From: Argopecten irradians | Taxonomy: Eukaryota; Mollusca; Bivalvia; Pectinida; Pectinidae | Direction of reading: 5' to 3' | Length of the DNA: 64,000 bases | NCBI RefSeq assembly: GCF_041381155.1 | Contig: NC_091134.1 | Coordinates: forward strand, 58,187,467-58,251,466 | In this document: positions 1-50,781 of the stretch, piece after piece | How the letters are laid out: the number at the start of each line of letters is the position of its first letter | Numbering within the stretch: the first letter of the stretch is position 1 | Notes under the pieces: generated by a model | Databases searched by the model: none | Seen by the model: the letters and a program-made list of their open reading frames with translations, nothing else | What the model was told of the DNA's origin: nothing | Program-made: the position numbers and the translations under genes

Positions 1-2700
1 GAATGATTTTTAATTGCAATTAAGCTCTTTCGTAACGAAAATATCTAATCGTATCGGAACGTCAGAGGCATCTGAGTGATACGAAACTACTTACTGATAC
101 TTCGCTCTTTTGCAGTTTATACACACAGCACAAATGTATGTATGTTAAATGTCGCCATAATGCAGTACACAGTTTTGCTAAAGTAGTACATTTTTATGTT
201 GAACATGAATATGAACATTATAAAACCTCTAAATCAGAACGTGTCCCCATGTTGTATTTACCTTCCAGTGATCATCCGTGAACGCACAGGTATATAGGAT
301 AGTACAAATACGTGTTTTATTTTTTAAAATAATTATTTTTATCGAAGCTGCAGATGGACCAAAGTTACGTATGCTGTTAAACATAATAGGTGGCAGGGCC
401 TCAGTTCCTGAGTTCGTCATAGGTATTGACATTTAAATCAACCTCAGCTAATTCTAGGCCGTCGTAAGTCCTGTCTACTGTCGCCGGCACCGACATGTTT
501 TCATATCCTCCTTCATCTGGCATCTCAGACCTTGTATCTGATTCACGAAGGGATCTTTTCTCCACACATCTGTTTAAAGATATACTTTATACGTTAGTAT
601 CACAAACATGTGTGCAAAATATGCTGATTAGAATTTGGAGTTCATGTGTTATATAATGGTCATAGCAATTTGTCGATGCACTTACGGAGCTTGTTCTACA
701 TGGTTTGACTTCTAATGAAGCCAGGGAGGAGACACGGTGCATTGAATAACGTAATATAAGCTTTAAGATCCAGTATGGGAAAACAGATGGATTTTTACAT
801 GTAGATTTCATGTCTCTTCAATATCATTAAACAATGGCGTTTTATGAAAGCTAGTTATATAACTTACTATAAATATGAACTCAAAACATAGACAGAGAAC
901 ATTCTACTTTCAAAATGTAAAGGGAGATACGTAACTCACTGGTAAAAGTTCAACATTCCATCAGATGTCAATTACATGGGAAATGAGCTCCCTATCACGT
1001 AATTACGTGAACAAAATTTCCATTTATCAAGAAAATCACCAAATACCTACGTTGTGCTTTCAAAAATGATTTTAGGTGACAAGAAATGTGACTTTGTATT
1101 TCTATCCAGCTGTAACGCCATTATACAAAGCATACTATGATTTCCTCTCGGTACTCACCTTCTCACATACAGAAAGGTCATGGCCGCTGCGTATAGTGAA
1201 ACGAGACATAGGCAAATAGCCAAAATGGCAACAGCGTACACTGCAAGAGAGATTGAAAGCTTTCAAAACTATTAGAATAACGAAATTTTATGACGTGTAT
1301 GTGTAAGGTGTTCATTGTTGGTTTGATTAACTTAAAGTAACCATCAGTTAAGAGATCCTCACTACTGTGACATAGTTCTTCATAGATTAAAGAAAATATT
1401 TCTCGAAACCACTCTGATCATATCAATATCATACTGCACGTATATATACTACACATACTATACAACATTGAGCATCTGAAGATAAAGTGAAAGCGCTAAT
1501 GCTTAACGAAGACTTCGTCATTTGTGCATTTTTTCTATACTATACATAGTATTTATATGGAAGAACGCATATCTGTTTTAAAAGAAAGTGAACCCTATAA
1601 ATTTGAAAAAGCTTACCAGGTAAAATTATGTACTGTTTTTCATTAACACCGCAACGGCATTCTTGTACATACACATAGAAAAAGTGTTGAAAAAGAATAA
1701 AACAAGGACACCTAGATTCTAATAAAATGAAAATAATTACTAAAAAGTTAAACTTCTCTACATATGTTTTTAGATTTAAACTTTCCAACCTCTTGTTATG
1801 ATAAACCAGGAAATATTTTATACGATGTAACATTACTTCCTGGATAAACTTCGGTCTCTGACCCACATTGTAAAGATGTCTTCATTTCCATAAAAATTCA
1901 TTTCATTTGTTGATGATATAATCCTATGAATCATTTTATTTTTTAACAATAACAACATTACCATGTGTTTCGGTTGATGAAGTGCTATGAGAAACAGGTG
2001 TGGTAGTTTCAGTTTCGACATCGCCTTTAGTTGGCTCAAGTGTAATACCTCCTGATGTAACTGTCGTAGCTCTTGTTGATGGAATTGTTGTTGGTGATGG
2101 TATTGAATTAAAAGGCTTGGTACATGTTATTGTAAATGTAGTGTTAGGTATCACAACCTCGCCTGAAATATAGAAGTTTATTTAATTTTTTATTGTACTC
2201 TATATAGATTAGTCGTATAGATAATACTGAATAATGACTTCCTTTTCTTGTTTGTTTGGTTTTTTTTTTTATTAATTAACGTACTATTAATAGCTATGGT
2301 CCCTTTTCTTTTCTTTCTCTCTACACCATAGACGTTTCAAGTTCGATGTTTATACTTACATGTAACATTAAGACAGTACTTCGAGTCTCCACTAGATCTC
2401 CTGCTCTATGTTATAGTAACTGGTCTTATATGGAAAGTTCGAACAGGGGATGTGTTACATTGATAGCGTATGTCTTCCTCTACAGAGCCACTCTTGGGAA
2501 CCACAACCTCACTACCACAACTGGATGTATTGGGGTTTAAACCTTCACCGTAAAACTCTATGTTGATAAGAATGATGAGTGGTGAGTTAACAATACAAGA
2601 ACAAGTTATCTCCCCTGTATCCTCGGCCTCGTGTGTGTCCAGTATCACTCTATCTGACGTCACGTTTCCATCCTCACACATCCGGATATCTAGGATTAAA
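1..2700. repeat. Tandem duplication, copy 1 (matches 12214-14780)
   Basis: Starts with the same sequence as 12214 (GAATGATTTTTAATTGCAAT) and stays alignable through the 3' flank, tail, TM, Cys, stalk and ectodomain exons with small indels. Similarity stops at the acceptor of the ectodomain exon, so introns 2 and the 5' exons are unrelated between genes 1 and 2. Bases 1-400 are the 3' flank of gene 1 and hold no other recognisable gene. Confidence 0.9.
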
Positions 2701-2918
2701 CCAAGCCAGATTGTAATTGCTAGTACTTTGATCTTGTTAACGTTTAACTGACTGGTTATTGAATGTTTCTGGATAAAACATTAAATAGTTTGATCAAGTT
2801 AAAAAAACAAGTCCAATATTAAGGGACAATGTGGTTTTGTAAGCATGATTCAATTTCTTAATAATACTAACCAAATAGTTTATGTTTTAGATTTATGATT
2901 TTGTTCTGATTTTCATCC

Positions 2919-3225
2919 TCGATACTCCAGGGGATTCGATCACTTACTATCTCTACACCCCTGAACTATCTCATAGTAAAACTTGAGGCAACAGAACAGG
3001 ACAGGAAATGTACGCCTTTGATGTCCGTATAACGGTACACTATGGTTGACTGTTTGACTTTGAAGTTTCGCGTCGCTCTTTCTGTAGTTTTCAAATACTT
3101 TTTTGCTGGCATGTGATTGGTCCAGTTGTTTTTCCTCTAAGCTGCCTTCAGTTTTACTATGAGATGGTCCAGGGGTGTAGGGATCGTAAGTGAGCGGAAC
3201 CTCTGGAGTATCGAAGATGGTTGCG
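2919..3225. mobile_element. MITE-like element with ~80-bp inverted repeats
   Basis: CGATACTCCAGGGG...TCACTTAC...CACCCCTGAACTATCTCATA at the left returns inverted at 3140-3225 (CTATGAGATGGTCCAGGGGTG ... CCTCTGGAGTATCG). The interior of about 140 bp has no convincing gene; the open frame through it is a by-product. Confidence 0.7.
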
Positions 3226-4034
3226 TATATACCCGACACAAACAAATCTAAGTCTGCTGAGCGTGATATAAGTGTATTACTACTAAATGGGATCCTACCG
3301 CATTACGTCCCTTTATTTGACGCCGTTAGCCGTCGGGCGGCGCTGCCTACTTTTGGTAGTTCCGGTTTGGACGGCAATGTAAACAAGGCCATGCCGCATC
3401 GTACACATCAAACGTCAAGTCGACGTTCTTCCGTTTGGCTGGGCTATTAAATCTCATTTTGTGAGTATTACGATCAGATACAATACACACTCTTTTTCGA
3501 TTCAATTATAAAATGTGTTTTCTCTATCATCACTTACAGCTGCGCAGTACGGCTTGAGTTTTAAAAAAAATGTTATAGCGGTTATACGAGGCACAAAAGC
3601 GTCTTGCATATGTATAAGGTTTTAAGATTCACTGAAACATTTTTTTATTATTAATTTTTCACCCTGTGGAAATCGAGACTTACCGTAGTTTGCATTGTCA
3701 TAAAGTTTGTCAATGACACAATGTACATATGTAGTTGTTTCTCTACATTTTAGTACATATGACAATGGTACATATATAGTCTATACAGTTGGTATACGTA
3801 GTAGACTAAAGGTTTCAGCATTGCGCACAGGGTACGTTTAAACTACAGGTTCTCATTGATACATTAAATTCTATACATGTATATCAATACATGTTACATT
3901 ATTTCACATCATCGTGTATCGATTTAAATACATATTTAAGATAACTTTATTTCTGGTTCAGGACTTATATGTAAAGTCCTCTATACCAGACTCAGACATA
4001 ATATAGAGTTTACAGTTAATACATTTTTATCCGG

Positions 4035-4510
4035 TAATAATAATAAATTAATGATGTATAAAGGCTTTGTAGTTGTATAAGAGTTCCTGTTCTTTCCAAT
4101 GTTTATCTAACGCATTTTTGAAGGAGTTTATATTTGGCGCCATCACTACATTCTCTGGTAGATCGTTCCATATCTTAGTAGCTCTTAGTGAAAAAAAGTT
4201 TCTCCTAATCCCATAGTTAGATCTTGTATGGAATAGCTTCCTCCTATGCCCCCTGCTGCTCTCGCGGTCCGTTGCATCTTTCCATAAAGATAAAATGTTA
4301 CAACATTCGGAGTCATATACTCCATCTAAAATTTTGAAGAGTTCTATCATGTCTCCTCGTATTCTTCTATATGCCAATGTTGGTAATTTCAGTTTCTCCA
4401 GTCTTTTACTATATGCTAGATGTGACATTCCTGATAGACATTTTGTCGCTCTTCTTTGGACACTTTCTATCATTAATCCGTGTCGAAACCATGTACACAA
4501 TATGTCATCT
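4035..4510 (-). mobile_element. 5'-truncated LINE, C-terminal end of its reverse transcriptase ORF
   Basis: A 150-codon minus-strand frame (4500-4048) carries the hallmark tail of LINE-encoded RT proteins: IESVQRRATKCL, LEKLKLPTLAYRRIRGDMIE, FKILDGVYD, FFSLRATKIWNDLPENV and NSFKNALDKHW. The catalytic RT and endonuclease parts are missing, as is usual for 5'-truncated insertions. A short TAATAA-type repeat at 4035-4050 marks the 3' end. Confidence 0.85.
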
Positions 4511-5970
4511 TTTGTCTACTACTAACTATACATGCAGACAGTGCCATGTAGAATTTGAAAGATATATGGTAAGAATTTGATTGTTAAAATTTCAAGGCAG
4601 TCTGCTCTTTTATCAATACATATATAAAACGAATACAGAATTTGCATTTATATATTTCTTTCAATTTAGCCTGTCCCCTGCCTCTAATGGATTCAATTTT
4701 TCCTTTTAGGTTTAAAGACCATCCAAAACATCACTCATCAGAAGACAGTCTAAGAAAAACTGGAACCACGTGCATCTAGTGTTGGAACATTGTATTGAAT
4801 CCATTATAATAAAATTAGCCATTGTCAGATGTGATTATTTTTTCATTCTATTGTTCATTTTTGTAGGCATTTGCATGCACATGTTACCACTACTTAAGAA
4901 ACTACCAGGATATGGGCCCATTAAACTAAACTTTCATTAGTAGGTACATTTACTACCAACTGTAGGTAAAATATGAGACTGTTTGGAAATCTAATATGTG
5001 GTATAGAGACCGCAGAACCAAATGATTTCGCTATATACGATATATTAACGTTTGCCACTGTCCAGGTTAAATGGAGTTTTCAAGTCTGGTCACCTGTCAC
5101 TAATTTTGAAGAATGGCATCTGGCATACCTGTGAATAAAAAGAAATAAAGATCTACCATCTTGCTAAACTTTTATGTGGGGGGTTCCATCTTATGTTGAA
5201 TTCCGCACCAAAAATTGACCAAAATATTCATGAAATTCCAATATTGATTACCTCCCCCTGTCAGACACACACTTGACAGAATTTTAAAATTTCTTTACAT
5301 ATTTTACATCTACATGTATTGCCCAACCCACACATTAAACATTTGAAACTGATGCGCCCTGAATACCCAATCAGCAGGCTCCGAAACATTCACCTCTCTA
5401 TGAAATCTTGTGCCCAAAAAGGGATTTCTAGGAATCTATTTTTGGTTTGATTCTGCGGTCTAATATAATCTATAGGTGATACCTTAAACCTCAAAGCTTC
5501 AGGTACATATAGGATATATATTTACTGGGGAAGTAGTCAATCAAAATTCAAATCCAATAATTGACTTGTAACTTGTAAGATTATCAGATGTACCTTCTAT
5601 GGGTTATACATGTCACATAGTGGCTAAAACATTATATAATGTAATAAAAAATACTTTCAGCTAAAATTCAAAGCTTAGATAAATACCTGGTACATTTTTT
5701 GTTCGCAGATATAATTGTAGCTGTTTGTTGCATTAATATGGTGGTTTCCCCAGACTTATGAATTTATAGTCATTAATTGAAATGGTGCATTAATTTATGC
5801 ACTGCATCATTTGACATGTATGTCAAGATAAAAAAATTAGGGTAGGGCAGATGTTGGGTAGCCTAGGACATGTTGGGTAGGGCATATTTTACCAAGGACA
5901 TACATGTTTCCAGTATATCAAAACATTTTCTTTCATACCTGTGTAATACTGGCTGGTCTAGGGCAATACA
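4511..5970. other. Intronic stretch of gene 1, no gene seen
   Basis: AT-rich sequence with stops in all frames, short T/A runs and no recognised coding segment; part of the long second intron of gene 1. Confidence 0.5.
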
Positions 5971-5974
5971 CCCA

Positions 5975-6025
5975 TGTCGCCTGAGGCTGTATTGCATGGC
6001 TACCCATGCAATAAAGCCTCGTGAC
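5975..6025. repeat. Short hairpin
   Basis: GAGGCTGTATTGCATGG and CCATGCAATAAAGCCTC face each other around CTAC, with partial extension (TGTCGCCT / CGTGACA). A strong stem of about 17 bp with one mismatch and one bulge. Confidence 0.7.
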
Positions 6026-6260
6026 ATCACGGTGTCAACAAAATTTCTATTTTCTCGGTAAAATTTTAACATTTTTTTCAAAATTTTGACTGATTTTACT
6101 ATAAAAGATGCAAACAACGGAATTTTTGTTGAAAATATCGCGTAATTTTTCATGAATGGAAAATTGACTCTCAGTCGTGGATTTCTTCGAATTTATTTCA
6201 AAGTGGTGGGATATTATAGTTGTAAAATTGCAATAAAAAGTTAAGGTATTAAAGAAAAAT

Positions 6261-6409
6261 ACTCTTTCATAAGTGGATATGAAGGATAGGGATATTCTAC
6301 CCTCGGGATCACAAAATGTTGCAAAACCCTCGGCAAGCCTCGGGTTTTACTACATTTTGTGACCCTCGGGTAGAATATCCCTATCCTTAATATCCACATA
6401 TGAAAGAGT
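6261..6409. mobile_element. Foldback element, ~149 bp
   Basis: ACTCTTTCATAAGTGGATAT at the left pairs with ATATCCACATATGAAAGAGT at the right, and GATAGGGATATTCTACCCTC with GGGTAGAATATCCCTATC. The whole unit is one imperfect palindrome, typical of a MITE. Confidence 0.8.
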
Positions 6410-6644
6410 CTTATAATACTGTATTTGACCCAGTAAGCACCCAGCACATTTAAAACAATATTGAAACAAATAAGAACGCTTAATGGAACCAATTTGTTCA
6501 GCCTAATAAACTATTGAAGAAAGTGAGTCAGTTAAATGAAATACAAAAGAAATGATTATAAGCCTTTAGTTTTCATATTTTTTGTCTGCATTTAATTTGA
6601 GTCAAGTGATATTTAAGCCCAAAAATGGGGAGAAGCACTTATAG

Positions 6645-6760
6645 GCACAGGGACCTGGCACAATTTTTTTGTAACCAACAGTATACAGATATATATTATA
6701 GTATCTATTATATATATGTGTATACTGTTGGTTAAAAAAATTCGTGTCAGGTCCCTGTGC
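6645..6760. mobile_element. Foldback element with AT-rich loop
   Basis: GCACAGGGACCTGGCACAA and TGTCAGGTCCCTGTGC form the outer stem, ACCAACAGTATAC and GTATACTGTTGGT the inner stem, around a TATATATTATAG loop. Confidence 0.8.
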
Positions 6761-6999
6761 TTAAAGGGTTTGGGACCGTATTGGGTCGAATACAGTACAT
6801 GTACCTTGCCAATGCAGCCTAGAGATGATGAGTCTCAATTTTCTCAAAATATTCCTTAACAGACTATAGCACAAACTTTGTTCTTTATTGGTTATAAGTA
6901 AATGGTTCCATTCCTTGGTTAAGGTACAAGTATATAACTAACAGGAGATCAAACAAGGAATGTAAATGTCCACCATAGATGGATCAATCAAAAGAAATA

Positions 7000-9900: not shown

Positions 9901-10240
9901 AAAATAACCTAATTTAGTTGTGCCAATACCAAAACTATCTATACAGTACATGAGAGAATAATCTGGAACTTCTATGCTTCGTTTTACACAAAGAGCCGTT
10001 TACACATGTATGCCGAATTACATTATTTTATCATTAATTCTTTTTTATATTAAACAAATGTTTCTGTTAGCATTTTTATGACACGCAGTTATGAAATAGA
10101 AATACATTGTATTAGAAACAAGTATTATAAGAATAGGTGCGTATTAATTTATTTTACTTCTCCAGATATAACACAAAATAACTGGTAAAAATGTAACCAG
10201 CATGCATGCATGTATGAAGTTCATTTAACAGTTAACAATA
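7000..10240. other. Remainder of gene 1 intron 2, repeat-rich
   Basis: No exon with coding signal was found. A probable non-autonomous element lies at about 8424-8870: GGGGTAGAATTTAATTTTTT at the left resembles the inverse of AATTTCGAACCCTTTTT at the right, with repeated CTCGCC/GGCGAG motifs inside. At 9540-9690 a minus-strand segment shares GCCTACCGCATTACGTCCCT with 3290-3310. Confidence 0.45.
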
Positions 10241-10719
10241 ACTCACGTGGGATGTCTTCTTTGTCTGCCGCATCTGAACAACTACTTGCTTTGATACCTG
10301 GGAATTATACATTATACTGTAAAATATTGAAGTAGGGGCATCGTCGGAAATACTTTATTTGTCGATTTAGAATGTATCGAATATCAGTTTTCACCTATTG
10401 CATGATCGTAAAAGGCGACTAAATTTAGGATCTTATCTTTTCTCTTCTTCCTAACTGACTTTATCTTTCCTAATGCGACTACCCTGAAAGTACAAACTTA
10501 CCACCCCGCCATTACATTGTAAACACAATGTTTTTAATGAACTCGCTGTGTATTGTGTGTAAACATGACTAGTTATTGCAATGACTGCACTATTTAATAT
10601 TCTGGTAGTCTTCGGTAAAAACTAAAAAACCCCTGCTGTCCTAACCTGGTTATTTCATTGTTGGACATTATGTTTAGGGTTTGACACTGCAGGTATGGGG
10701 CGTAAAACATTTAACCTGC

Positions 10720-11195: not shown

Positions 11196-11199
11196 AAAG

Positions 11200-12213: not shown

Positions 12214-14780
12214 GTGAATGATTTTTAATTGCAATTAAGCTCTTTCGTAACGAAAATATCTAATCGTATCGCAATGTCAGAGGCATCTGAGTGATACGAA
12301 ACTACTTACTGATACTTCGCTCTTTTGCAGTTTATACACCCAGCACAAATGTAAGTATGTTAAATGTGGCCATAATGCAGTACACAGTTTTGCTAAAGTA
12401 GTACATTTTTATGTTGAACATGAATATGAACATTATAAAACCTCTAAATCAGAACGTGATGTAAATGTCCCCATGTTGTATTTACCTGGTGATCATCCGT
12501 GAACGCACAGGTATATTGGATAGTAAAAATACGTGTTTTATTTTTAAATGATTATTTTTATCGAAACTGCAGATGGACCAAAGTTACGTATGCTGTTAAA
12601 CATAATAGGTGGCAGGGCCTCAGTTCCTGAGTTCGTCATAGGTATTGACATTTAAATCAACCTCAGCTAATTCTAGGCCTTCGTAGGTCCTGTCTACTGT
12701 CGCCGTCACCGACATGTTTTCATATCCTCCTTCATCTGGCATCTCAGACCTTGTATCTGATTCACGAAGGGATCTTTTCTCCACACATCTGTTTAAATAT
12801 ATACTTTATTCATTACTATCACAAACAGGTATGCAAAATATGATGATTAGAATTTGGAGTTCATGTGTTATATAATGGTCATAACAATTTGTCGATGCAC
12901 TTACGGATCTTGTTCTACATGGTTTGACTTCTAATGAAGGTCCAGGGAGGAGACACGGTGCATTGACTAACGTAATGTAATATTAAACAATGGCGGTTTA
13001 TAAAAGCCAGTTATATAACTTATTGTAAAGATGAACTCAAAACATAGACAGAGAACATTCTACTTTCAAAATATAAAGGGAGCTACGTAACTCACTGGTA
13101 AAAGTTCACCATTCCATCAGGTGTCAATTACATTGGCAATGAGCTCCCTATCACATATTTACGTGACCAAAATTTCCATTTATCACCAGAAAATCCCCAA
13201 ATACCTACGTTGTGCTTTCAAAAACAATTTTTGGTGACAAAATTGTGACTTTGTATTTCTATCTACCTGTAACGCCATTATACAAAGCATACTATGATAT
13301 CCTCTCATTACTCACCTTCTTACATACAGAAAGGTCATGGCCGCTGCGTATAGTGAAACGAGACATAGGCAAATAGCCAAAATGGCAACAACGTACACTG
13401 CAAGAGAGATTGAAAGCTTTCAAAACTAATAGAATAAAGAACTTTTATAATGTACATGTGTAAGGTGTTCATTGTTGGTTTGATTAACTTAAAGTAACCA
13501 TCAATTAAGATATCCTTACTACTGTGACATAGTTCTACATAGATTAAAGAAAATATTTCTCGAACCCACTCTGATCATATCAACATCATACTGCACGTAT
13601 ATATACTATACATAGTATTTATATGGAAGAACGCATATCTGTTTTAAAAAAAAGTGAACCCTATAAATTTGAAAAAGCTTACCAGGTAAAATTATGTACT
13701 GTTTTTCATTAACACCGCAACGGCATTCTTGTACATACTTGTCACAATTTTCTTCTCCTAAAAAAAACATGTTGAAAAAGAATAAAACAAGGACACGTAG
13801 ATTCTAATAAAATGAAAATAATTACTAAAAAGTTAAACTTCTCTACATCTGTTATTTGATTCGAACTTTCAAACCTCTGGTTATGACGAACCAGGAAATA
13901 TTTTTACGATATCACATTACTTCCTGGATAGACTTCGGTCTCTGGCCCATATTGTAAAAATGTCTTTAATTCCATAACAAAATTCATTTCATTTGTTGAT
14001 GATATGTTCCTATGAATCATTTTATTTTTTAACAATAACAACATTACCATGTGTTTTGGTTGATGAAGTGCTATGAGAAACAGGTGAGGTAGTTTCAGTT
14101 TCGACATCGCTTGTAATTGGCTCATTTGTAATACCTCCCGATGCAATTGTCGTAGTTCTGGTTGATGGAATTGTTGTTGGTGATGGTATTGAATTAAATG
14201 GCTTGGTACATGTTATTGTAAATGTAGTGTTAGGTATCATAACCACGCCTGAAATATAGAAGTTTATTTAACTTTTTATTGTACTCTATAGATTAGTCGT
14301 ATAGATAATACTGAATAATGACTTCCTTTTCTTGTTTGTTTGGGTTTTTTTTATTAATTAACGTCTTATTAATAGCTATGGTCCCTTTTCTTTTCTTTTT
14401 CTCTACACCATAGACGTTTCAAGTTCGATGTTTATACTTACCTGTAACATTAAGACAGTACTTTGAGTCTCCGCTAGATCTCCTGTTCCATGTTATAGTC
14501 ACTGGTCTTACATGAACAGTTCGAACAGGTGATGTGTTACATTGATAGCGTATGTCTTCCTCTACAGAGCCACTCTTAGGAACCACAACCTCACTACCAC
14601 AACTGGATGTATTGGGGTTTAACCCTTCACCGTAATACTCTATGTAGATAATAACGATGGATGTAGAGTTAACAATACAGGAACAAGTTGTCTCCCCTGT
14701 ATCCGCGACCCCATGTGTGCCCAGTATCACTCTATCTGACGTCACGTTTCCATCTTTACACATCCGGATGTCTAGAAATA
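12214..14780. repeat. Tandem duplication, copy 2
   Basis: Partner of 1-2700, offset about 12.2 kb, containing exons 3-7 of gene 2 and the 3' flank 12214-12619. Differences are mostly single bases and short indels, for example a ~200-bp stretch near 12.97 kb that is shorter here. Confidence 0.9.
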
Positions 14781-16865
14781 GAGATAAAATCAGCTTTGCC
14801 CTAGGATGTATGGTGTCCAAATCAAACATATATCGATTAAGGACAATAAAATAGTTATCTGTTTAGTTCAGAATATAAACTACAAAATATTTAATTCCTT
14901 CACTCAGCAACGACAAAATATCATTTCATAGTTATCATTTATAGTTTTAAAACATATATCGATGATGGAAACACACAATAGAGTGTCACACTTATTGATT
15001 TAGGGTGTAAGCCAAATAAGGTTTCATTTCACAATTTAGCAATGATAAAAATTAATGTCTAATATATTAATTATCTATAGATTTTACCTTTATAGATGGG
15101 TAGTACAAAGGCGACTTACACGGTATACCAGCTGTTTGTGCAGCTTCTGAACACCGACTCCCTGTCGTTTCTGAAGGAAAATCCAATACAAACATGTTAA
15201 GTCCCTGTCATTCTTTAGTTTGACGGTTCGGGAAATCTGATATGAGAGGCTTTTTGAAGGTATGTTTTTTTCAGATAAAATATATACAGTTTGGACCAAA
15301 TACTCGATAAAAACATTGATAAGTCTTCGAGTAAGATGCATAAACTTTTGTTCCAAAGGATTTATCATGAATTAATTTGAATGTCTCTTAAACACCATGT
15401 TTCAAGTGTACAGATTATTTCATGTTTCATTTGTTCATCAAATTTAATTCAACCCAGCCCAAACATCCAAAGTTGGCTTGGTTGTTTTGATACATCACAT
15501 TGTGTATTACAAAAATAATGTACTCACATTATCATGTCTCCTAAACAAAGTCTATTTTCTTGTGGACTATCAATGTACAATGCCACTTGTTTGTTTGGAC
15601 ATGTAAATATAACGTATATAGAGGTTACACAACGAGTGGTTGATGGATATGGAATTTATTACACACGAGTGAGTTATTTTGTAAAAGTTACAAAAGACAC
15701 CAGCTTTTAAAAAATAACTAACGAGTGTGTAATAAATTCCGTATCTAATAACCGCGAGTATGTGACCTGTTTCTACCACAATTAAATCATCTACAAGTGA
15801 TAGCATTATAAGCAAATAGGCACTCATTAATATTCAAATATATTTAATTACTTAAATAATGTATTGATAATTTTAATTATGAACAACTATTCCATGCATT
15901 CCTTCTTACCGAACGTTTTTTGAATCTTGATTTCTATAGGTACTTCAACAATAACCTTGTCATTGTCGAACTACATTTGGACATGTTTACGGCAAAGTGA
16001 CATCTACATCCCGCCAAATAATCATCAAACCATTGTAACTAAGTTAGAGTCTGAACTAGGTGCGTTAAATTCTACCGAAATCACCCCTAAGGGTCCTCGT
16101 CAGGTGAGATACGCCACTAAATAAAGGCCAATTATGAATTTTGCGTCGATAGTTTATGCTACGAATGGGAAAACAGGAAAGATTTCGACGCCGTCATACA
16201 TTCAGTTTCAATAGTGGCAAGCAGCGATCAGAGTACAGCAGCATGACGTCATTCGATAATTGATGACGTCAACTATCTGTGAAGTGACAATGAGAAAAAA
16301 GTATTCGACGTATTGTGGTAGAAAAGGAAACAAAAAATGACCAATATAGGTTTATCACATAATTCGCCTGATATCCAGTGATTTCACCCGTGTAATATTT
16401 TTGCGTATGTCACTAGTGTAATATGATGTGGAGCGATTTTCATTGGCTGGAAATCCATTGTGACGTCAGACAGAAACAAAAAAATAACTTCAGGAAAAGT
16501 GACGTGACGTCAGAATAACGAAGACGGCTGGACAAAATGCCAAGGCTCGCAAAAATAAAAACTTCTTAGATTCGTTTCATAAAATTTCATATGAAATGAT
16601 CACTCATGTAAGGTCCTATATAATACAAGAGCTTTGCTCGGTTTGACTAGTTTAACGTCCTTTAACAAGACATTTGTTACCAAACCTTTAACGTTAGAAC
16701 ACTATGTATAATATCTGTTCTACTTACTTCCTGCTTGGAATTTACATAGTTTATTAAAATGTTATAGATATCCAGCAGTCACTCCTGTTATTTATGCTGA
16801 TAGTACTAACCTGCAATCTGGATCAGTAACAGAAAACATATCGGGGTAGTGTTTCGCCAGCCCAT
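12620..16865 (-). CDS. Receptor gene 2: complete 320-aa type I membrane receptor with ITAM-like tail
   Basis: Seven exons on the minus strand: signal 16865-16811 (MGWRNTTPICFLLLIQIA), linker 15170-15120, ectodomain 14771-14442, stalk 14248-14048, Cys exon 13757-13683, TM 13397-13316, tail 12788-12620. Lengths sum to 963 nt, exactly 321 codons including TGA, and every junction is phase-compatible with GT/AG ends. The ~110-residue ectodomain has six cysteines (MC, CSC, SCG, QC, YC) and an IEYYGEG stretch; I cannot assign it to a named family, though a CUB-like or other beta-sandwich fold is conceivable. The stalk is Thr/Ser/Pro-rich (likely O-glycosylated). The Cys exon reads ENCDKYVQECRCGVNEKQ. 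The tail has GGYENM (YxxM, a PI3K-SH2 type motif) and the pair YEGL...YDEL with 11 residues between, close to the ITAM pattern. Inferred role: surface recognition coupled to tyrosine-kinase signalling. Expression is not shown by the sequence. Confidence 0.85.
15620..15769. mobile_element. Foldback element, ~150 bp
   Basis: ATGGAATTTATTACACACGA and CGAGTGTGTAATAAATTCCG pair, as do GAGTTATTTTGTAAAAG and CTTTTAAAAAATAACTA; outer ends GGTTACAC and GTGACC extend the stem. It sits in intron 1 of gene 2. Confidence 0.8.
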
Positions 16866-17440: not shown

Positions 17441-17449
17441 ATACATATA

Positions 17450-18520: not shown

Positions 18521-18532
18521 ATTAGTTTTCTT

Positions 18533-18790
18533 CTATTCGTCTATTTTCTTATTAAACTCAGTATTATCCTTAGAATTTTTGGTTGATTCATCATATTCCT
18601 CTGCATTCACATCTGCAGCATTAGACTTGTCAAACACTTTGTATGTTATACTAGATGATTTATCCTCCGAATATTCGTCCGGTATTTTGTTGTTCAAGGG
18701 ATAAACAAACTTTTCACTACCAAGTACGTATTTACTCTGAGCGTCCTCGTGGGGGTCATGCGCTTCTTGTATTTTGTCGTTGAGCGTCCT
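18533..18790 (-). pseudogene. Out-of-frame continuation of the gene 3 tail
   Basis: Beyond the stop at about 18756 the next minus-strand frame stays open to a TAG at 18533-18535. It reads the last repeat as DKIQEAHDPHEDAQ, matching the register of the upstream repeats (KGQEVHDPHEDA), then continues through NKIPDEYSEDKSSSITYKVF and AEEYDEST to NKKIDE. The matching repeat register shows that this was, or still is in another allele, the true C-terminus; the last repeat copy is 43 bp instead of 60 bp, a 17-bp loss that shifts the frame. Alternatives are polymorphism or an assembly error inside the repeat. Confidence 0.6.
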
Positions 18791-18961
18791 CGTGGGGTTC
18801 ATGCGTTTCTTGTCTTTTGTCGATGGATTCCATATAAGGAAGAGCGTCCTCGTGGGGGTCATGCACTTCTTGTCCTTTGTCGATGGATTCCATATAAGGA
18901 AGAGCGTCCCCGTAGGGGTCATGCGCTTCTTGTCCTTTGTCAATGAATTCCATAAAAGTAC
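18739..18961 (-). repeat. 60-bp coding minisatellite in the gene 3 tail
   Basis: Four tandem units start near 18739 (43 bp), 18782, 18842 and 18902 (about 60 bp each) on the plus strand, each beginning GAGCGTCC. On the coding strand each full unit gives 20 residues of the type MESIDKGQEVHDPHEDALPY. Unit number and unit length are likely to vary between individuals because the copies are nearly identical. Confidence 0.85.
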
Positions 18962-21900
18962 TTTGAACAATAACATTGTTTGTCGGATGATACAAGGGAT
19001 ATGTTATGCGCTTTTTCATATCCTCCTCGCCATCGTTCGTTTGCGAACAGAGAATATTATGGTATTCCTGAGCCTCCTCAGTGCTGTCATATGAAGCAAA
19101 TCCGTGGGTGTCTCTCATGTGAGGTAAAGATGAGGACGCCATCTCCATGTCATTGTCGTAGGACTGCCGTCTTCGACCTTCTGCAGGATGTACATGTCTT
19201 AACGCGGAACAAAATATACACTTTTGTTATAAAAGGACATCACCAACTATGCGGAAATATGATAACCACTATATAATGTCATGTGATATTTCTTCCTTTA
19301 GTATTTAGGACTAAGAAAAAAATTACTTTCCAGTACCAATAACTCTTATGAACATCAGTTTGTTTGTGCCTGCAGATACTGTCGCACTCGTTTTAAGGAT
19401 GCAGACAGCTGAATTGATACACAGTTGTATTCCCCACCAAACATTTTCGTCAACAACTGGGCAATTACTAGATAATCAAAAGAGATTATGTTTTTAAGAA
19501 AAAAACTTGATCTTCGGATATTGCGATTCAAAATTAAATGAGTTGATTAAATTTGCAATAATGTCACATTCTTATTTTTTCGTGGAAGCATTCGTCATAA
19601 AAGTAGAAGATAAGCTTACCTGAACCATAGAGCAAAGCCGATGGTGATGATAATGACAAGAGGAACTATTGTACCAACAGTAATTGCTGCCATATCTAAA
19701 CAAAAGTATATACTTATAGTTATATACAACTGAATGATGAATTAGAATTGCAACGTTGAAAAGGAAAAGTGTCATTTCAAGTTCTTTATGATTTTTTTCC
19801 AAGATTAAACATCTTATACTTATGAAAACCATATTGAAAGTCACAATTTAATCAACAAATGGATAGCAAAGTAAGAAACCACTTGTTATAAGTACGAAGA
19901 ATAGAATACTCGAATTGTGCTACAATATCCGAAATACAAATCTAGGTCAACTCTGTTTGATGTTACAATAACATAACGCAATTTTCACTCTAGTGTTGAA
20001 TTGATTTGGGAAGTTAAAATACAATATTCAATTTAAATATTCATTCAATCATTAAACCGCTTTATTTTCAAGAGAGAGACAGACGTGTTCGCGCTATGTC
20101 GCGAGAGAGTTCGATCGCCAATTCAATTGTTTCTTAGAGAAGTTTTACATGAATGTGTGATTGTCAGCGTCATTCAATGACGTAAAATATTGTGAACGCA
20201 AAAATAATGCAGTTTACAGTATTAGTGTATTTTTATTAGTTAATGCTCTACGATATACTTACAGACTGTATTATCATCTGGTGCTTGTGTTATTAGATCA
20301 CTAGGTGTCACTGTTGATGCTATTTGATCCGTAATTGCTATCCCCAGATAAGTATTGGATGTATTTGTCACATCTGGCAGGACCACACTACTGCTTGTCG
20401 TGGTATTTGTCACATCTGGCAGGACCACACTACTGCTTGTCGTGGTCAATGTTGATACCTGTGGTAACTGTTGTGACATTTCAGCTGTACAAGTTGATGA
20501 GTTAGTGGATAATGTCTCAGGCTTATAGCATTCTATTGCAAATGTAGTATTTGGGCTGTTTACTACTCCTGGAATAGTACAGTTTAGGTAAAATGACCAA
20601 CTTGTTTACATAGTTTGTTTTCGAAATTTATTACTAAACCCATAATCAAATGTAAATGATGGTGTTAAAGACAAACACAAGCTTTCGTGCGTTTGGCATT
20701 GACACAGGAATATCTCAACTTGAATGAAATGTTTTGGCTTATCAGCATCAGGCTTACCGCGTGCTGACCAGCACCAACAATATTTCACTGACACCCTTAG
20801 GAGAAAATAAAGAAAAAATGTTTTGTGTCTAGTTTATAGACAAGGCTCAAACTTTGAATATATTTGACAGGTCAGGTTTTCAGTGGGTGGGGCAGAGGTA
20901 TCCCTGTCTATTGTACAGACTTTGTCATACTATATCAATCTTACACACCTGAAACATTGAGGCAGTAATTGAAGCCCAGCAGTCCACTCCATGTTACAGT
21001 CACAGGAGGTATATAAATGCCGTTGTCCTGGGACATGGTGCAGTTAGAACGCCTTTCCCCAGCTGGAGATGTTGACTTGATAATTAAATTTCCGCTGCTG
21101 CATCCGGAAATGTTTCTCGTTGTATCAATACCATTATATTGTATACGTATATTAAGACTACCATTTGAGGTAACGATACAGGAACACCTTGTTATTTCAT
21201 TAGCTCCAACCTCTGGAGTTTTCAGGATTACTGTGTCTGATGTCACAAGGCTGTCCGTACACATTGTGATGTCTGAAAAATTCAATAATAGGCCCTACGT
21301 GTCACGTTTAAAATCGACCAAAATATCTTGAAAGCAGACTGAAATAAACTATAGGGTTGCTCATAAGTACATACAATCATATGATACATGTTACATTTAG
21401 CTATCAGCTGCTCCGCAAGCACCAAATCTGTACCTTATTATTTTTACACATCCTTGTGTCTGATCCCCGAGTTACCAAATAGGCAAGGACAGCGGCGGAG
21501 ACAGCATGAAGTGTAAAGATATTGTAAAGTACAGTACATTTACGATACTGTAAATTAATATTGTTGCTTACCTTGGTTAAAAGTGCCTAGATCACTTCAT
21601 GAGAGGTAAGCAAATATGAGTCAAGATAATGAATCAGTCTATTTGCAAAATATAGATTATCAAAAGTGTTAAGATGCCATGTATTATATTTTCTAATCAT
21701 TTCCGTTATTCTACTCCAACCAGTGACAATTGTAATTATCATAAAGGAAATTATCTAAAATTTAAATTATATATTGTTAAAAGCTCACATGTCACGTTTT
21801 CCGATACTGCTCCATCTGAACACTGGCTTCCTTTCGTATCTGAAAGAAGCATTTACACATGTAGTTTTACCATAATAGGCTATACCGACATAGGACCACA

Positions 21901-24625
21901 GGCGATAGATAAGAACAATTATTATACCTCAAGTGAGAATCCTGCATTCTGATTGGTCGAGAGATATTTGGTATTTTACACTTTCACACGGCATGTAACA
22001 TTAGAACAATAGGAAACAATAGACACGTTCGTAGCAACCCCCTAGCAACGGGTGATAGTGTATTTTTGACAGTGCAAAATAATAACCGCCCGAAAAACAT
22101 GCGCACTCGTTTCTTTTTTCGACGCCATCTTTGTTTTTTGAAGCGACGCTTCAAAATTTATCTAGAGCTATTTAGTAATAGCTTTGCCAAATTAGTCTAT
22201 TTATCAATATGTTTTGTTTTCAAATTAAGGACGGAGCTTTCCGTTTACACCTTTTCGCTTACCGTCCAGCGCTATATGTTGGTTGAACGGAAGACATGCG
22301 ATTTCAAGCGTCTTCGTGACGTTGCTTATGTTGTAAACAGACGACGGGACGAAACCAAAATTCATTGAAATTTACAAAAACGTTAAGATTTTAACAAACA
22401 AAGGAAACAAGACAACAAGAATTTTCACTAAATGCTTATTGTGAGTATTCTTTTTTATAATGCAATGATAGTTAACGCTACTGAGTAGAAGCTGATATGC
22501 TATTCTACTGCTGCCGGTGACTCACTGACTGTTCGACTTTTGCAAAAATCAGTTACAATGTTTCAATAGATTGCAAATACTTGAAAACTAGTTTTGTTGC
22601 TAGACTTTTGGTATAATAAAAAAAATACTACCTGCATTAGAGGGTGACAGTGCCTGTGTAACCCCGAGGATATCACTGTCACCCGAGGCGAGGGTGACAG
22701 TGATATCCTCGGGGTTACACTTAGTCCGCTAAAACTGACCATAATCGCAGGCTCAAAATTCTGACTGATCGCCTGTTTATGGTCAGCTACCTACTGCTCT
22801 TAAAAAGTCGGGGATTGTAGTACAAATCTGGCGACAGCGATTATGAGAAATCTGCATGTTGGTTTGGGGTCAAATATGCCTTTAAAGTTAAAGGAAAACG
22901 TTTGGCACTCACTTTAATACATGTCACATCCCAATTCATCACATTAACGATGCTATGTCCCTAGTTATGTTCGAGACGTCCAAGAATCAGTGTTTCTGTA
23001 GCCATCTTTGAAGACCAAAAGTTAATTTTAACAGCCAATTAGAATCGTCGAATTTCACCAGAAATCGATCCCAGCTGTCTGATTGGGTGTTAAAATTAAC
23101 TTTCAGTCTTCAAAGATGGCTACCCAAACATTGATTCTAGGACGTCTCGACCATAACTAGGGACATAGCATCATTTATGTGATGAGTTGGGATGTGACAT
23201 GTATTAAAGTGAGTGCCAAATGTTTTCTTTTAACTGACAATACCTTTCTGACCCCAATTAAACCTACAGAAGTCCCATAATCGCTGTCGCCAGATTTGTA
23301 CTACAATCCCCGGCTTTTCAAGAGCAGTAGGTAGCTGACCATAAACAGGCGATCAGTCAGAATTTTGAGCCTGCGATTATGGTCAGTTTTAGCGGACTAG
23401 GTTACACTAGGCACTGTCACCCTCTAATGCAGGTACATTGTAGTATTTATATAATATAAACTTATACATGGAGCATATACGGTGCATCGTTACAAAAGAA
23501 ATATCGCATATCATTTTTTCTCGAACCCATGCACAAAATGCATATTTCAAAGGAAGAAGGTTAGCAGATCCTCATAGGAAGATATTTCAATAATATATAT
23601 ATATATATATATATGTATACGGACGAAATCTATAAGAAATAAAAACAATAACGACTGACTAGTAAGCGTTTTCGCCCCATTCAAGTGAGCTCTTCAGACG
23701 CACCATCTGAACCCATGCACAAAATGCATATTTCAGAGGAAGAAAGTTAGCAGATCCTCATAGGAAGAGCTCCCTTGAATGGGGCGAAAGCGCTCACTAG
23801 TCAGTCGTTATTGTTTTTATTTCTTATAGATTTCGTCTGTAAGGATTTTTCTTTAAATTTATCATATATATATATATAGTCGTACTTAATATTAAACATC
23901 TATATACGTATGTATTTGTTTTGCATATCTATGGAGTATACACGGTATAGAATGACGGCGGGGTACCTATTTATAGAATAATGCTAGAAACCGGTTTTGT
24001 TATTTATACACGTAATAAAGCGCACAGATACATATCAACACCGCTGTGCCAAGGTACAGTATAGTGTAATTCTATAGAATACAAATGATATTTAGACTTC
24101 AGCTTAGGTTTACAATGGAGAATTGGCCTATATCCCAAAACATTCCATAACTCAAACATTACATGAGTTACATGTACAGATGCATTTGTATATGTGAAGC
24201 AGATTTCAATATGATTTATTTTTATATTATATTTAAATTTTGAAGAGATGACGTTTTGAAAAATAATATACATTTAATTATGTATAATTTTCACCAATTA
24301 AAATCCCCTCATGTTAATGTTTCAGACATTTTGTTTAATGCTGATTTGCAGGAAAACATTACTTATTTATTTCTATATTTGTGTTAATGATGAAATATCA
24401 GAAGAGTATACTTCCTTTAAATAAACGCACAAATGGCTATAAACCTAAAACATCCATGACCTAGTTATAGGATTACCTTTAGTACGCACATGAAAGTTAG
24501 AGTTTAATTCTGGTTTAATGGTATTTAGTAGCTAGTAGCATACATAACTGTTTAAATTTAATATGTTTTGTCTTACCTGATGCACGAAGAAACAGCAACG
24601 AAAATAACACCAACTTTGCGTCCAT
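18756..24625 (-). CDS. Receptor gene 3: divergent paralogue, 406 aa, repeat-bearing cytoplasmic tail
   Basis: Six exons on the minus strand: signal 24625-24577 (MDAKLVLFSLLFLRAS), linker 21839-21789 (KGSQCSDGAVSENVT), ectodomain 21272-20949, stalk 20568-20263, TM 19695-19620 (VGTIVPLVIIITIGFALWF), tail 19170-18756. The sum is 1,221 nt, 407 codons with stop. The ectodomain keeps all six cysteines of genes 1 and 2 and has several N-glycosylation sequons (NGS, NIS, NCT, NVS). The stalk holds two tandem copies of TTTSSSVVLPDVTN. No separate Cys exon is seen. The tail has SYDNDM, EYHNIL (YxxI), ITYPLY and two LPYMESI units inside 20-aa repeats; it lacks the clean YxxL pair of genes 1 and 2. Uncertain points: the strong acceptor CTGCAG at 19181 would put the tail out of frame, so the weaker GAAG at 19171 is chosen; a short final repeat copy shifts the frame and ends the protein at 18756 while another frame stays open to 18533. 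Confidence 0.75.
22632..23435. mobile_element. 800-bp palindromic foldback transposon
   Basis: TACCTGCATTAGAGGGTGAC at the left returns inverted as GTCACCCTCTAATGCAGGTA at the right. Arms of about 390 bp align almost throughout (for example GCTATGTCCCTAGTTATG with CATAACTAGGGACATAGC) around a centre near 23045. The left arm has an additional nested hairpin at 22652-22722 (GAGGATATCACTGTCACCC / GGGTGACAGTGATATCCTC) absent from the right arm. No coding frame. Confidence 0.85.
23524..23845. mobile_element. Composite element with direct and inverted repeats
   Basis: A ~60-bp direct repeat (GAACCCATGCACAAAATGCA ... CCTCATAGGAAG) at 23524-23583 and 23709-23768 is combined with ~75-bp inverted repeats: GACGAAATCTATAAGAAATA at 23623 and its inverse ending at 23840, including GCCCCATTCAAGTGAGCTCT. 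TA microsatellites flank both sides. It resembles terminal-repeat remnants of a Penelope-like element. Confidence 0.65.
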
Positions 24626-24629
24626 GCCT

Positions 24630-24690
24630 CCGGTTGAAGTGCAAAATCCAGCGTGCTATAAATAACTTATATGTAATTTCCGGCGGATCA
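24630..24690 (-). promoter_or_regulatory. Probable core promoter of receptor gene 3
   Basis: On the minus strand TTACATATAAGTTATTTATAGC lies about 30-55 bases upstream of the gene 3 ATG at 24625, giving two TATA-like cores (ATATAAG, TTTATAG). The 5' leader would then be very short. The same stretch is duplicated at 43.43-43.47 kb without the coding exon. Confidence 0.35.
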
Positions 24691-25604
24691 CGGTGTGGAT
24701 TTACACAAAAGTACTATTTGTATCAATTTAGAATTTGTCAATGCTAGCCTACCTAACATGTGGTATCAGACTTCGTTATACTGGTGGATACGATTACATG
24801 TTCAATTGTCGATAGCCATCTCTCCATCTATCTCACTTTACAGCGTCACAGTGTTTCTTTGTGTGTCCTCCAAATTCAATCTGAATATATCTGAGGAACA
24901 GCAAGAAGATTTTCATTGGTTTAATATTTCATATTGTCAAACGTTCAAATTGAGATGTCTGACAATCTCTGGTCATAGGAGCAAAACATATTCCGAGTAT
25001 GAAACAAACAGAAAGCTCGAAAAGCTGGTTAGACGGTTGAATGAACATATTGCGTATGTGTAGACAATATTACTTTATTACAAGGAATCTGCTTGTTAGC
25101 TCAGTTTATTATATATTTTTCTGCGACGATGTGATCTATTTTCTGATATATATATACAGCGTTTAGCATGTCAAGAGCCCGTTAGAGTTTGGATTTTTCT
25201 AGTAGTAAATCTATAAGGCAGACAAAGCAAACAAAATGTAGTCCTGTTTTGCAGTTTATCTCTCTCCAAATAGCTGTTTATGCTGATTTGCAATTCATAG
25301 TTATCTGGATATCAATTGATATATTTATTGTCAATATTGATTTATTACATACAGCTTGGTTTTTTTTATGATATAAAAATTCACGTACCACATGATACCC
25401 GATAATGTTTGTGCGGAACTATTTTTTTCTATTTCATTTCAGCGGGAAGATTACAGATAGTTACGTTCTATCACCACTTGAGATACTAGTCCCACACAAA
25501 GAGTGTCGGATATCACGTGGTACGTGAATTAGTCTCATTACTTGGTTTCATTTCGGTTTCACCTGTAATAAAAAAGGAACAAAAAATTTCTGAAATGAAA
25601 AACT

Positions 25605-25740
25605 TTTTATTATGCTATTTATTTATATGGGACAAGTAAGTTATTCCAACCGTGTGGACAAAACAAAATTGTCAAATTTTCGAGACGATTTGCCCCTTCA
25701 TCAAGACATACAAAACGAACACGATTACATAATTTATTTA
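25605..25740 (-). mobile_element. Penelope-like terminal repeat fragment
   Basis: GTTATTCCAACCGTGTGGAC ... TTTTCGAGACGATTTGCCCC ... CATACAAAACGAACACG is repeated in altered form at 30440-30560 near the RT remnant. On the minus strand it reads TTGATGAAG...CTCGAAAATTTG, resembling the hammerhead ribozyme core known from Penelope-like terminal repeats, but with U where the core C is expected. A duplicate copy is at 44.39-44.53 kb. Confidence 0.5.
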
Positions 25741-25754
25741 TATAAACTTTTCTT

Positions 25755-28700
25755 TTAGATATTCAGCATTGACCTTTTCTTCGTGTTCGAAATGACGCAC
25801 GGTTCCCTTCCGTTATTACTCAACCTAGAATACCCTTTGTCTAGTTCTCTTGATTTAATTATTTCCTTTGAACTCATATCTATAAATTCGAATTCATCAA
25901 TGGCATTGTATATTGTATGGATAGCTTCAGCTCCGACTACTTTTTTATTTACTGTATTGTTAACTTGACTGAACAACGCGTCGGTATCAAACTTGTTTTC
26001 CGCTTTTTTCGCTTCAGTTTCACATAAGTCAGTTTTTTCTTTGTTGAAAAACTCTGGCTTCTGAACTATGTCATTAATGATATTGGAAGGAGTATTAACG
26101 TACGGTTCGTAATTAATAGTCCTTTTTGTGTCCTCATCGGTCGTAGTTGAGTCCTCATCTGTGATATTGAATGCATTCCCTGATACAGGATCCGAAGTAT
26201 CTTCGTTACTAAAATGTGGGAAAGCGAAAGACATAGAAGCTGAACATCTCTGATGACCTATTCTGAAAGTGGAAAATATTGAAATTAATGTTTCCTTTTG
26301 AACTGCTATTCAATGAACTAATTGATTACATGATGTTCGATTCTGAGCATTAATTCTTGCGTACTGTAAACCAAAAGGATGCTGCTATTAAATTTCGCGA
26401 AATTCATTTGAAAACAAGTTCGCGAAGACCAAATTTAGCGGATTGCAAAATCAAATGAAAATTACTACCAGTAAATGTGATGTAGATGGCAATTAGCGGA
26501 TATAAACTTTCGCGAATTTACTTAGATCGCTAAATTTGCGAAAGTAAATCGCACGCGAATGAAAGTTGGCTTACAGTATGTGGGAATTGGTATGAGTAAG
26601 CTGATCTGAAAAGATACGCAGAGCATTACTAATCTGTCGTAGATTGTGAACTTGAATAAGTGAACTATATTATACAATAATATATATATTTTTTCTTTTG
26701 TTGCCAATTTGATTAAACATATTTTATTTGATTCATCAATGATATTAAAAAAATATTACTTATTCACAAAGAATCTATGTGTAAATGCAATGAGGTATCG
26801 ACTAAAAGCGATGTGATGCTTCAGTACGTGATAAATGTTTAAAGATTAATTCCCATTTTACTCCTCCATGATAAATTTCTGTCTGACTTTGTAGATATAC
26901 TTTCACATTTTAGGTTGATTAATCGAAGGTTATGTCTGCTATTCCGTTTTTAATTTCTATTTGATGTTGTTCGCATCCCTTGTTCGGATGGCTTGTATTG
27001 CATAAGCAATTGCTTTAGTTCACGAAAATATATCATAAGGTCACACAGAAGCATTAGCAAAGCACAGCAGACATCAAAAACATTAATCTTCTGAAGTAGA
27101 CAAGCAAAAAGTTAACACAGACATTTATCGTAATTTTCAAAGGATATGGTTGAAATGACCATTTACATATCACACAGGTCAATTTCGTCCGAGGCTTACA
27201 TATATTGGACACATACAAAGCTTCATCACGTCCGTTGAGAGAACAACCAACTTAATAATTTTACATAGACCACAGTGTTAAAGTTTATTAAGGTTTTGTA
27301 ATGTATTATTAAAACCACTGAATATTAGTTAGCTACTGTGTTCAATAATTACAGCCTAGGTTCTCATATAACACTAGATAGAAAAAAAGTGTGGGTCCTA
27401 CTGCTCAAAATCGAACCAGAGTAGCCATTTTGAAATGAGGTGCATTCGACACCGCAAAATCATGAAATTCTAATGTTTTTACCTATTCATTATCAAAATT
27501 GATATTTTGAACCTAAGTTTCAATCTGAATTTCCAAATTCATATCATTGTTATTTAGGAATAATTACCTGTCAGAAAACATTTTCATTTTGAAATTATTA
27601 ACCAGCCAATCAGTGGGCGGGTCAAAATTCTATCCTGTGCTCAATCTGCACAGGGGCCGTTTCTTATGGTCTTTTTTCATTTAGTTGGTTGTTCCCTTGA
27701 GTCCCAGTTAAAACGGTCCCACTGTACAAACGTATTTACTCAAGTTATCGTGTCCAAATGGATAACTAAACAGTCGATGCATGACACATAAATCGACGAA
27801 CAAAGGACTAAGAAGGACTAAATAAGGAGAAACGTCTGTCGTAAAGTTTTAGTATACTTCAATTTTAAAACATATTTAAGTCATAAGTACACATTTAAAA
27901 GTTTGCGAGATGTATCCAGTGTCCTTTTAAAATAACCCTTCAAAGGAATTTTGATTTCTAGAGATGGTATTATAGTTTAGATAGATGTGCATATTCAGAT
28001 AAAAGAATAAAACAAATATGCATTAATGAATATCGAGCAAGTGATGGAAAGCTTAATGGTTTGACTCAATCGACTGATAATGTAATTTATTACACTCATT
28101 TCCATTGGTTAGATCTTTGAGGTTGCTTTTTCCATAGACCGAAAGAATTAAACCTATTCTTCCTCCTTAACACAAGTAACGCATAACGTAAGTGCTGAAT
28201 ATCTAAAGCGAACATAACAGAATAAAATAATTGCATATAATATTGTTAATATGTTTCTTTACGCATGATTTATAATTATTTTTTTCTTTGTGTTCATACC
28301 AAATCTGGCTTTCTGATTGGCCAATACTTTTTGCATATCACTATGACAAAAAAAAAATCCGAGCATGGCGCAAAACCCCGACGTTATTGTGACGTCACAA
28401 TAGAAACATTGACGTTCCGTATTGATTCGGAAAAAGAATCCCTTGAAAAATCACTAGAATGGTGCGTTAAAACATACCATATTTAAGCAAATAGATTATA
28501 AGATTAATTTCAAGCATTGATATCACTATTTTCTAAATTTAATCGGGTTATGAAAAATATTGTTTGCAAACTTTTGCGAGAATCTGCTACGAATTCCACG
28601 ATAAAATTAAAAAATAGTGACATCAATGTTTAAAGCCACACTATACGTAATTATCAACAAAAAGTCAAGTTAGATTCGACCCCGATATTGTTAGTATTTG

Positions 28701-30560: not shown

Positions 30561-30574
30561 TACGAACAGTAATA

Positions 30575-30920: not shown

Positions 30921-30971
30921 AAAGCGAGTGATCAATAGATGTCAATTTGTAATATATATATATTTATATAA

Positions 30972-50770: not shown

Positions 50771-50781
50771 AATATATATAT

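Follow-up and report, generated by a model that had tools for sequence, protein, structure and literature searches.

The bay scallop, Argopecten irradians, encodes what is, judged from its exons, a type I single-pass receptor belonging to a family of scallop proteins. Its gene, here called gene 2, occupies positions 16865-12620 on the minus strand of a 64,000-nucleotide stretch (the window; C1:58187467-58251466 of an 846 Mb assembly) that also holds two relatives, genes 1 and 3. With modest confidence, we favor the reading that the gene 2 product signals as an immunoreceptor tyrosine-based activation motif (ITAM)/YxxM-type receptor through Syk and PI3K. The first-pass annotation had described the whole cluster as ITAM-like/YxxM receptors. 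For gene 2, this description agrees with a tail conserved in the Mizuhopecten protein model P0007 and with the finding that the genome encodes p85 as well as a Syk-type kinase; it does not extend to all copies.

Gene 2 comprises seven exons whose junctions are all in frame with GT/AG sites. In order, they encode a signal peptide, exon 2, a six-Cys ectodomain, a stalk, a Cys exon, a transmembrane (TM) segment and the tail. The junctions are of phase 1 up to the TM exon and of phase 2 between the TM and tail exons. The predicted product has 320 residues and one strong TM segment (19-residue hydropathy maximum 2.89). The cysteines of the ectodomain exon are at residues 40, 65, 67, 93, 113 and 141, and Ser, Thr and Pro make up 57% of the stalk. 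Of eight N-x-S/T sequons, six belong to the mature lumenal part, and the signal peptide and the tail have one each. For gene 2, the seven exons, signal peptide, six-Cys ectodomain, stalk, single TM segment and tyrosine tail proposed in the first-pass annotation are therefore borne out. At the stalk donor, read-through (14047 onward in gene 2, in intron 4, and 1961 onward in gene 1) gives a short, TM-less form ending NVVIVKK in both copies; the public gene 2 model has this form.

The gene 2 tail consists of 55 residues (CVEKRSLRESDTRSEMPDEGGYENMSVTATVDRTYEGLELAEVDLNVNTYDELRN) with YENM (codons at 12724-12713), YEGL (12685-12674) and YDEL (12640-12629), that is, a YEGL-x11-YDEL pair accompanied by YENM as a YxxM motif. 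An ITAM follows the consensus YxxL/I-x(6-12)-YxxL/I, usually with a gap of 6-8 residues. The pattern is matched with a gap of 11 in both gene 2 and the C-terminal tail of P0007. The tyrosine motifs lie where they had been claimed to lie, in the gene 1 (569-401) and gene 2 (12788-12620) tails on the minus strand. In 200,000 shuffles of the 55-residue tail, an ITAM-like pair arose in 0.4% and a pair plus YxxM in 0.015%, for motifs that were chosen after looking. A tail search of the genome, in which two candidates were scored, reported at least two places, namely genes 1 and 2, and gene 2 appears to be the only intact carrier of the tyrosine tail seen there. A third match to the GGYENM pattern, on C4, was rejected as a relative; the neighbouring DNA reads like a retroelement and the match is absent from the tail-search results.

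Outside Argopecten, the motifs recur in P0007, whose C-terminus (ESYENMPLPPSSDSTYEGLELSHVDLSPNTYEVLGNSGT) has YENM, YEGL and YEVL with the same 11-residue gap as gene 2. By tblastn, the P0007 tail ESYENM...STYEGLELSHVDLSPNTYEVL and the gene 2 tail GGYENM...RTYEGLELAEVDLNVNTYDEL agree at 50% over 46 columns. Over the whole tail, on an alignment lengthened by hand, 23 of the 55 residues were identical, including all six key ones, defined as the Tyr and +3 positions of the three motifs (hypergeometric P 0.0035). Over 33 residues, the gene 2 TM exon shares 42% identity with one TM segment of P0007 and 39% with the other, and P0007 has a CxC stretch before its TM that resembles the gene 2 Cys exon by eye.

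Candidate signalling partners are present in the same genome. A Syk-type kinase is encoded on C6 at about 6.141-6.155 Mb, where N-SH2, inter-SH2, C-SH2 and kinase exons follow one another along a single strand. Identity to human SYK is 59% and 39% for the N-SH2 exons, 43-52% for the inter-SH2/C-SH2 exons and 33-67% for the kinase exons; two other genome matches in this comparison fall on C10 and C4. No ankyrin stretch was seen between the SH2 domains of the C6 kinase by eye, in the absence of a domain scan. For the p85 inter-SH2 domain, two of three reported matches exceed the Pfam cut-off, on C6, and a match was found in one of 14 control genomes, below the cut-off. Both the YxxM in the gene 2 tail and p85 are thus present in this genome. 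According to one comparative study, invertebrate Syk/Zap70 homologues, those of molluscs included, track the CARD-CC/Bcl10/paracaspase complex, from which ancient upstream ITAM receptors were inferred (PMC5978004).

A plausible course of events can be drawn from these parts. Clustering driven by a ligand would let a Src-family kinase phosphorylate the gene 2 tail, whereupon the YEGL-x11-YDEL pair would dock the tandem SH2 domains of Syk and YENM, with N at +2 and M at +3, would dock p85 and perhaps Grb2. The outcome would be activation of, or uptake by, the receptor-bearing cell, perhaps a hemocyte. Relatives in which this kind of ectodomain is joined to other tails, one of them with motifs of the immunoreceptor tyrosine-based inhibitory motif (ITIM) consensus, may tune or oppose the signal. 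The words "activating" and "immune" are inferred for this receptor. An unlikely alternative is that the three tyrosines are Yxx-phi signals for AP-2 uptake, making gene 2 an endocytic or mucin-like scavenger receptor and not a signalling one. YENM, YEGL, YDEL and YEVL all fit the Yxx-phi consensus and the gene 2 tail leaves no room for a catalytic domain; however, AP-2 uptake needs neither the conserved spacing of the pair nor N at +2 of YENM/YVNM. It is also quite unlikely that the tail serves an adhesion or growth receptor by docking PI3K/Grb2 through YENM, with the YxxL pair binding single SH2 proteins and not acting as a Syk ITAM. Each of the four short tails seen, those of genes 1 and 2 and both P0007 copies, has YENM or YVNM, and the first P0007 copy, as modelled, is without the pair, yet the second P0007 copy keeps both pair and gap.

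Several observations weigh against signalling of gene 2 through Syk and PI3K. The gap of 11 is beyond the 6-8 residues usual for an ITAM, and the first tyrosine of the Mizuhopecten pair also fits the ITIM consensus (STYEGL). Only one protein with the tyrosine pair, P0007, was found outside Argopecten, and the first, internal short tail of P0006 and P0007 has YVNM and is modelled into the next ectodomain without the pair. A protein search with the TM/tail region considered 19 candidates and returned the gene 1 model P0002 alone, with P0007 (598 aa) being above its size limit. Within the Argopecten genome, genes 1 and 2 are 98.2% alike in their tails and 93.1% in the preceding intron; constraint on the tail is not cleanly shown, because similarity is likewise high (97.5%) in the 3' flank. 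The N-SH2 match and two kinase matches to SYK extend beyond exon ends and contain stops there. Lastly, the public gene 2 model P0001 (220 aa) ends in intron 4 and is without TM or tail.

This last point also bears on a further alternative, namely that the array consists of decaying duplicates, is mostly broken, and that gene 2 makes only the secreted protein of the P0001 form. Such decay would account for gene 1, which is 91.6, 94.8 and 92.9% alike to gene 2 over three stretches and is damaged by a TAG at 2408-2406 in its ectodomain exon and by loss of the Cys exon acceptor with 16 bases. Its signal-peptide exon was not found, and the public model, P0002, has a different start and is missing both the last part of the ectodomain exon and the Cys exon. 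An orphan tail exon with a dead copy also fits decay. Nevertheless, gene 2 itself has no lesion, P0009, a relative of gene 3, is probably a spliced transcript, and the nonsynonymous rate (Ka) is below the synonymous rate (Ks) for the ectodomain in all three pairs of genes 0, 1 and 2, damaged gene 1 included. Decay of gene 2 to a secreted product is highly improbable on these grounds. By the same three comparisons, no diversifying selection was seen on the ectodomain; for the stalk, Ka is 0.087 and Ks 0.059, values that rest on 15 changes.

Gene 0, a further copy, lies to the left of the window; its ectodomain (58181031-58181360) is 89% identical to the gene 2 query and its model is P0003. With the gene 2 ectodomain as query, a genome search that scored 17 candidates located at least five places: genes 0-3 and a site at a distance of 13 Mb. 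More diverged ectodomain copies occur at C1 45.09-45.23 Mb and one weak family match at C1 50.51 Mb. Copy counts from these searches are lower bounds, as the 50.51 Mb search, for example, is without gene 3. The tandem cluster with such tails that had been described needs rewording: the copies have the ectodomain in common, their tails differ and gene 1 is damaged.

Turning to gene 3 (24625-18756), its exon order is that of gene 2 minus the Cys exon, and its tail is of another type. Scanned as P0009, this tail type has no ITAM, ITIM or YxxM match, which rules out the same tail for all copies and with it a tyrosine tail common to the cluster. In gene 3, the signal, ectodomain, stalk, TM and tail stretches of P0009 (445 residues) are spread over 6 kb of genome, yet P0009 comes from a contig of 1,854 bases; it thus probably represents a spliced transcript from gene 3 or a near relative, and is without exon 2. 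At 18756-18800, the reference gene 3 tail ends in RQNTRSA within a degenerate repeat, and P0009 continues for about 67 residues in another frame to 18536. This difference may reflect an allele, a change in repeat length or an assembly error. The fourth paralogue suggested for a block ending at 26262 is reduced to a lone tail exon: tblastn with all 11 family proteins gave no matches to the right of 24700 in the window or in the next 20 kb, and the copy near 45 kb has stops. The orphan tail may be a diverged form of the long tail of P0004, P0010 and P0006; when it was compared with these three tails, its score was reached by 7, 254 and 21 of 500 shuffles, respectively.

Exons of the receptor family in the window (positions within the window)
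Feature	Position	Strand	Remarks
Gene 2 signal-peptide exon (MGWRNTTPICFLLLIQIA)	16811..16865	-	tblastn of P0001, 18/18 residues; donor after ..GATTGCAG read from sequence
Gene 2 exon 2 (ETTGSRCSEAAQTAGIP)	15120..15170	-	
Gene 2 six-Cys ectodomain exon	14442..14771	-	phase 1-1
Gene 2 Ser/Thr/Pro-rich stalk exon	14048..14248	-	phase 1-1
Gene 2 membrane-proximal Cys exon (EENCDKYVQECRCG...)	13683..13757	-	phase 1-1
Gene 2 transmembrane exon	13316..13397	-	phase 1-2
Gene 2 cytoplasmic tail exon	12620..12788	-	stop 12622-12620
Gene 1 exon 2 (GIKASSCSDAADKEDIP)	10247..10297	-	
Gene 1 ectodomain exon	2360..2689	-	in-frame TAG 2408-2406
Gene 1 stalk exon	1962..2162	-	
Gene 1 transmembrane exon	1159..1240	-	
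Gene 1 tail exon (YENM, YDGL-x11-YDEL)	401..569	-	
Gene 3 signal-peptide exon	24577..24625	-	
Gene 3 exon 2	21789..21839	-	
Gene 3 ectodomain exon	20949..21272	-	42% identical to gene 2
Gene 3 stalk exon	20263..20568	-	
Gene 3 transmembrane exon	19620..19695	-	
Gene 3 tail exon, as annotated (P0008)	18756..19197	-	ends RQNTRSA
Orphan cytoplasmic-tail exon	25755..26262	-	copy near 45035-44557 with in-frame stops

A profile search with the ectodomains returned at least 11 proteins at E<=0.1 among the 7,991 candidates sharing most words. They are P0001, P0002, P0003 and P0008 of Argopecten, P0005, P0006, P0007 and P0011 of Mizuhopecten, P0004 of Pecten, P0010 of Ylistrum and P0009, which carries no name. 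All four genera with named relatives belong to the Pectinidae, and the label "mollusc-type" is too wide as far as this search extends. As for the fold, Pfam gave no match at E<=1 in any of nine ectodomains. The best hit of a PDB profile search was a viral 3C proteinase (E 0.29), followed by an immunoglobulin (Ig)-like NK-receptor ligand (E 0.43), neither of them significant. Two structure predictions returned low confidence (pLDDT 35.3 and 39.6) on shallow alignments. Ig, EMI/EGF and other known ectodomains were rejected as demonstrable, with no support from Pfam or the PDB profile; a hidden Ig fold may nonetheless be present. The remaining matches are weak or concern the membrane segment. In another profile comparison, sodium channel beta-2 matched best (E 0.023) at profile positions 234-288, the TM part. 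On gene 2, TMEM9 matched at E 0.024, below the Pfam cut-off, and of 11 Pfam rows for P0006, P0007 and P0010, the one above the cut-off was Orthoreo_P10 in P0010, on the TM stretch. The family is unnamed in the literature found on ITAMs in molluscs and invertebrates, a search that did not use a family name.

A second kind of tail, different from that of gene 2, is found in other scallops. Among six named proteins of other species, P0007 keeps the tyrosine pair, whose absence from homologues had been put forward as evidence against the family; P0004, P0010 and P0006 carry a different, long tail, and the models P0005 and P0011 are tail-less. The ITIM consensus [SIVL]xYxx[ILV] occurs twice each in the long tails of P0004 and P0010 and three times in that of P0006, in tails with nine Tyr that are conserved throughout and in which some chance matches are expected. 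LxYVxV and VxYAxV are at aligned places in all three. No ITIM, ITAM or YxxM match was found in P0003, P0009, P0011 (truncated at the TM), the orphan tail or two tail exons near 45.22 Mb. Residues 1-144 and 145-357 of P0006 are identical to residues 1-144 and 215-427 of P0007, with the split exactly at the ectodomain/stalk boundary. Since the contigs listed for P0006 and P0007 are equal in size (455,769 bases), the two are read as models of one gene. Each model holds two ectodomains, so it is possible that the predictor fused two tandem genes.

In Argopecten, the inhibitory-type long tail was not found at the receptor locus or in the 90 kb to the left of the window. The best match in the genome is at C1 45,097,844-45,098,242 (E 8.8e-5), a tail exon in which GDVYAVVNKSKK, GLVYAEV and SVVYAEV were read by eye. 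Upstream of it by 3.5 kb, in the same orientation, is a diverged ectodomain exon, and the two are inferred to belong to one gene. C1:45.09-45.11 Mb thus holds a second group of diverged ectodomain copies, with a long tail exon whose tyrosine motifs fit the ITIM consensus by eye. Together, the two tail kinds raise the tentative and rather doubtful prospect of a scallop paired-receptor system, in which one kind of ectodomain would be placed on either a short ITAM-like/YxxM activating tail or a long ITIM inhibitory tail. Duplicated stalk-TM-tail cassettes with a common phase 1 junction, along with alternative splicing in one gene, would be the means, arising independently of vertebrate paired receptors and in parallel to Draper-I/II. 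If the tail swap is true, activating/inhibitory pairing evolved on an ectodomain without known relation to the vertebrate ones.

Several repeats were also noted in the window. A large direct segmental duplication, about 98% identical (24644-30970 and 43425-49807; 30958-33378 and 50768-53169), starts beside the gene 3 signal-peptide exon and carries the orphan tail exon. An open reading frame pair with the same translation (30972-31349 and 50782-51159) reads like a mobile-element protein, with no Pfam match for the first copy. Inverted 1.5 kb copies, 98% identical, are at 35231-36725 and 43419-41926, and a 161-base tandem repeat of 6.5 copies at 40884-41925. From 61421 to the window end at 64000 runs a satellite-like array of extreme strand skew with a 112-base unit, present in 14.5 copies at 93% in 62405-64000.

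The gene 2 receptor resembles several known systems in part. Fc-gamma-RIIA consists of a single chain whose own tail carries an ITAM with a wide gap, as proposed for gene 2, but is mammalian and has an Ig ectodomain. In CD28-type YMNM tails, pYxNM docks p85 and Grb2; CD28 shares YxNM with gene 2 but has an Ig ectodomain and is without paired YxxL. Vertebrate paired receptors (KIR, SIRP, PILR), which lie in tandem clusters, combine one kind of ectodomain with either an activating or an inhibitory tail. The scallop cluster likewise has one ectodomain kind on differing tails, whereas its ectodomain has no detected relation to theirs and the inhibitory-type tail was not found at the Argopecten locus. 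The gap of the Draper ITAM is 11 residues. Draper, MEGF10 and CED-1 are single-chain receptors, with an ITAM in Draper and MEGF10 comparable to the ITAM-like pair of gene 2; however, their EMI/EGF ectodomain and NPxY are absent from the scallop receptor, in whose tail no NPxY and in whose ectodomain no EMI/EGF (by Pfam) was found. A Syk-family kinase is described as reading the ITAM of Draper and MEGF10, and Draper-II, a splice form, as carrying an ITIM in its place (PMC4503800, PMC8092387). A molluscan ITAM receptor is already known, namely CgIgIT2 of the oyster Crassostrea gigas, reviewed as a single-pass bivalve receptor with an ITAM, expression mainly in hemolymph and ERK signalling (PMC11999971). 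Like it, the scallop protein is a single-pass bivalve receptor with an ITAM-like tail; unlike it, with its five Ig domains, the scallop receptor has one short six-Cys ectodomain and no Pfam domain. With its conserved three-motif tail, gene 2 is a compact receptor candidate from a farmed animal, in which the link from Syk to an upstream ITAM receptor is directly testable.

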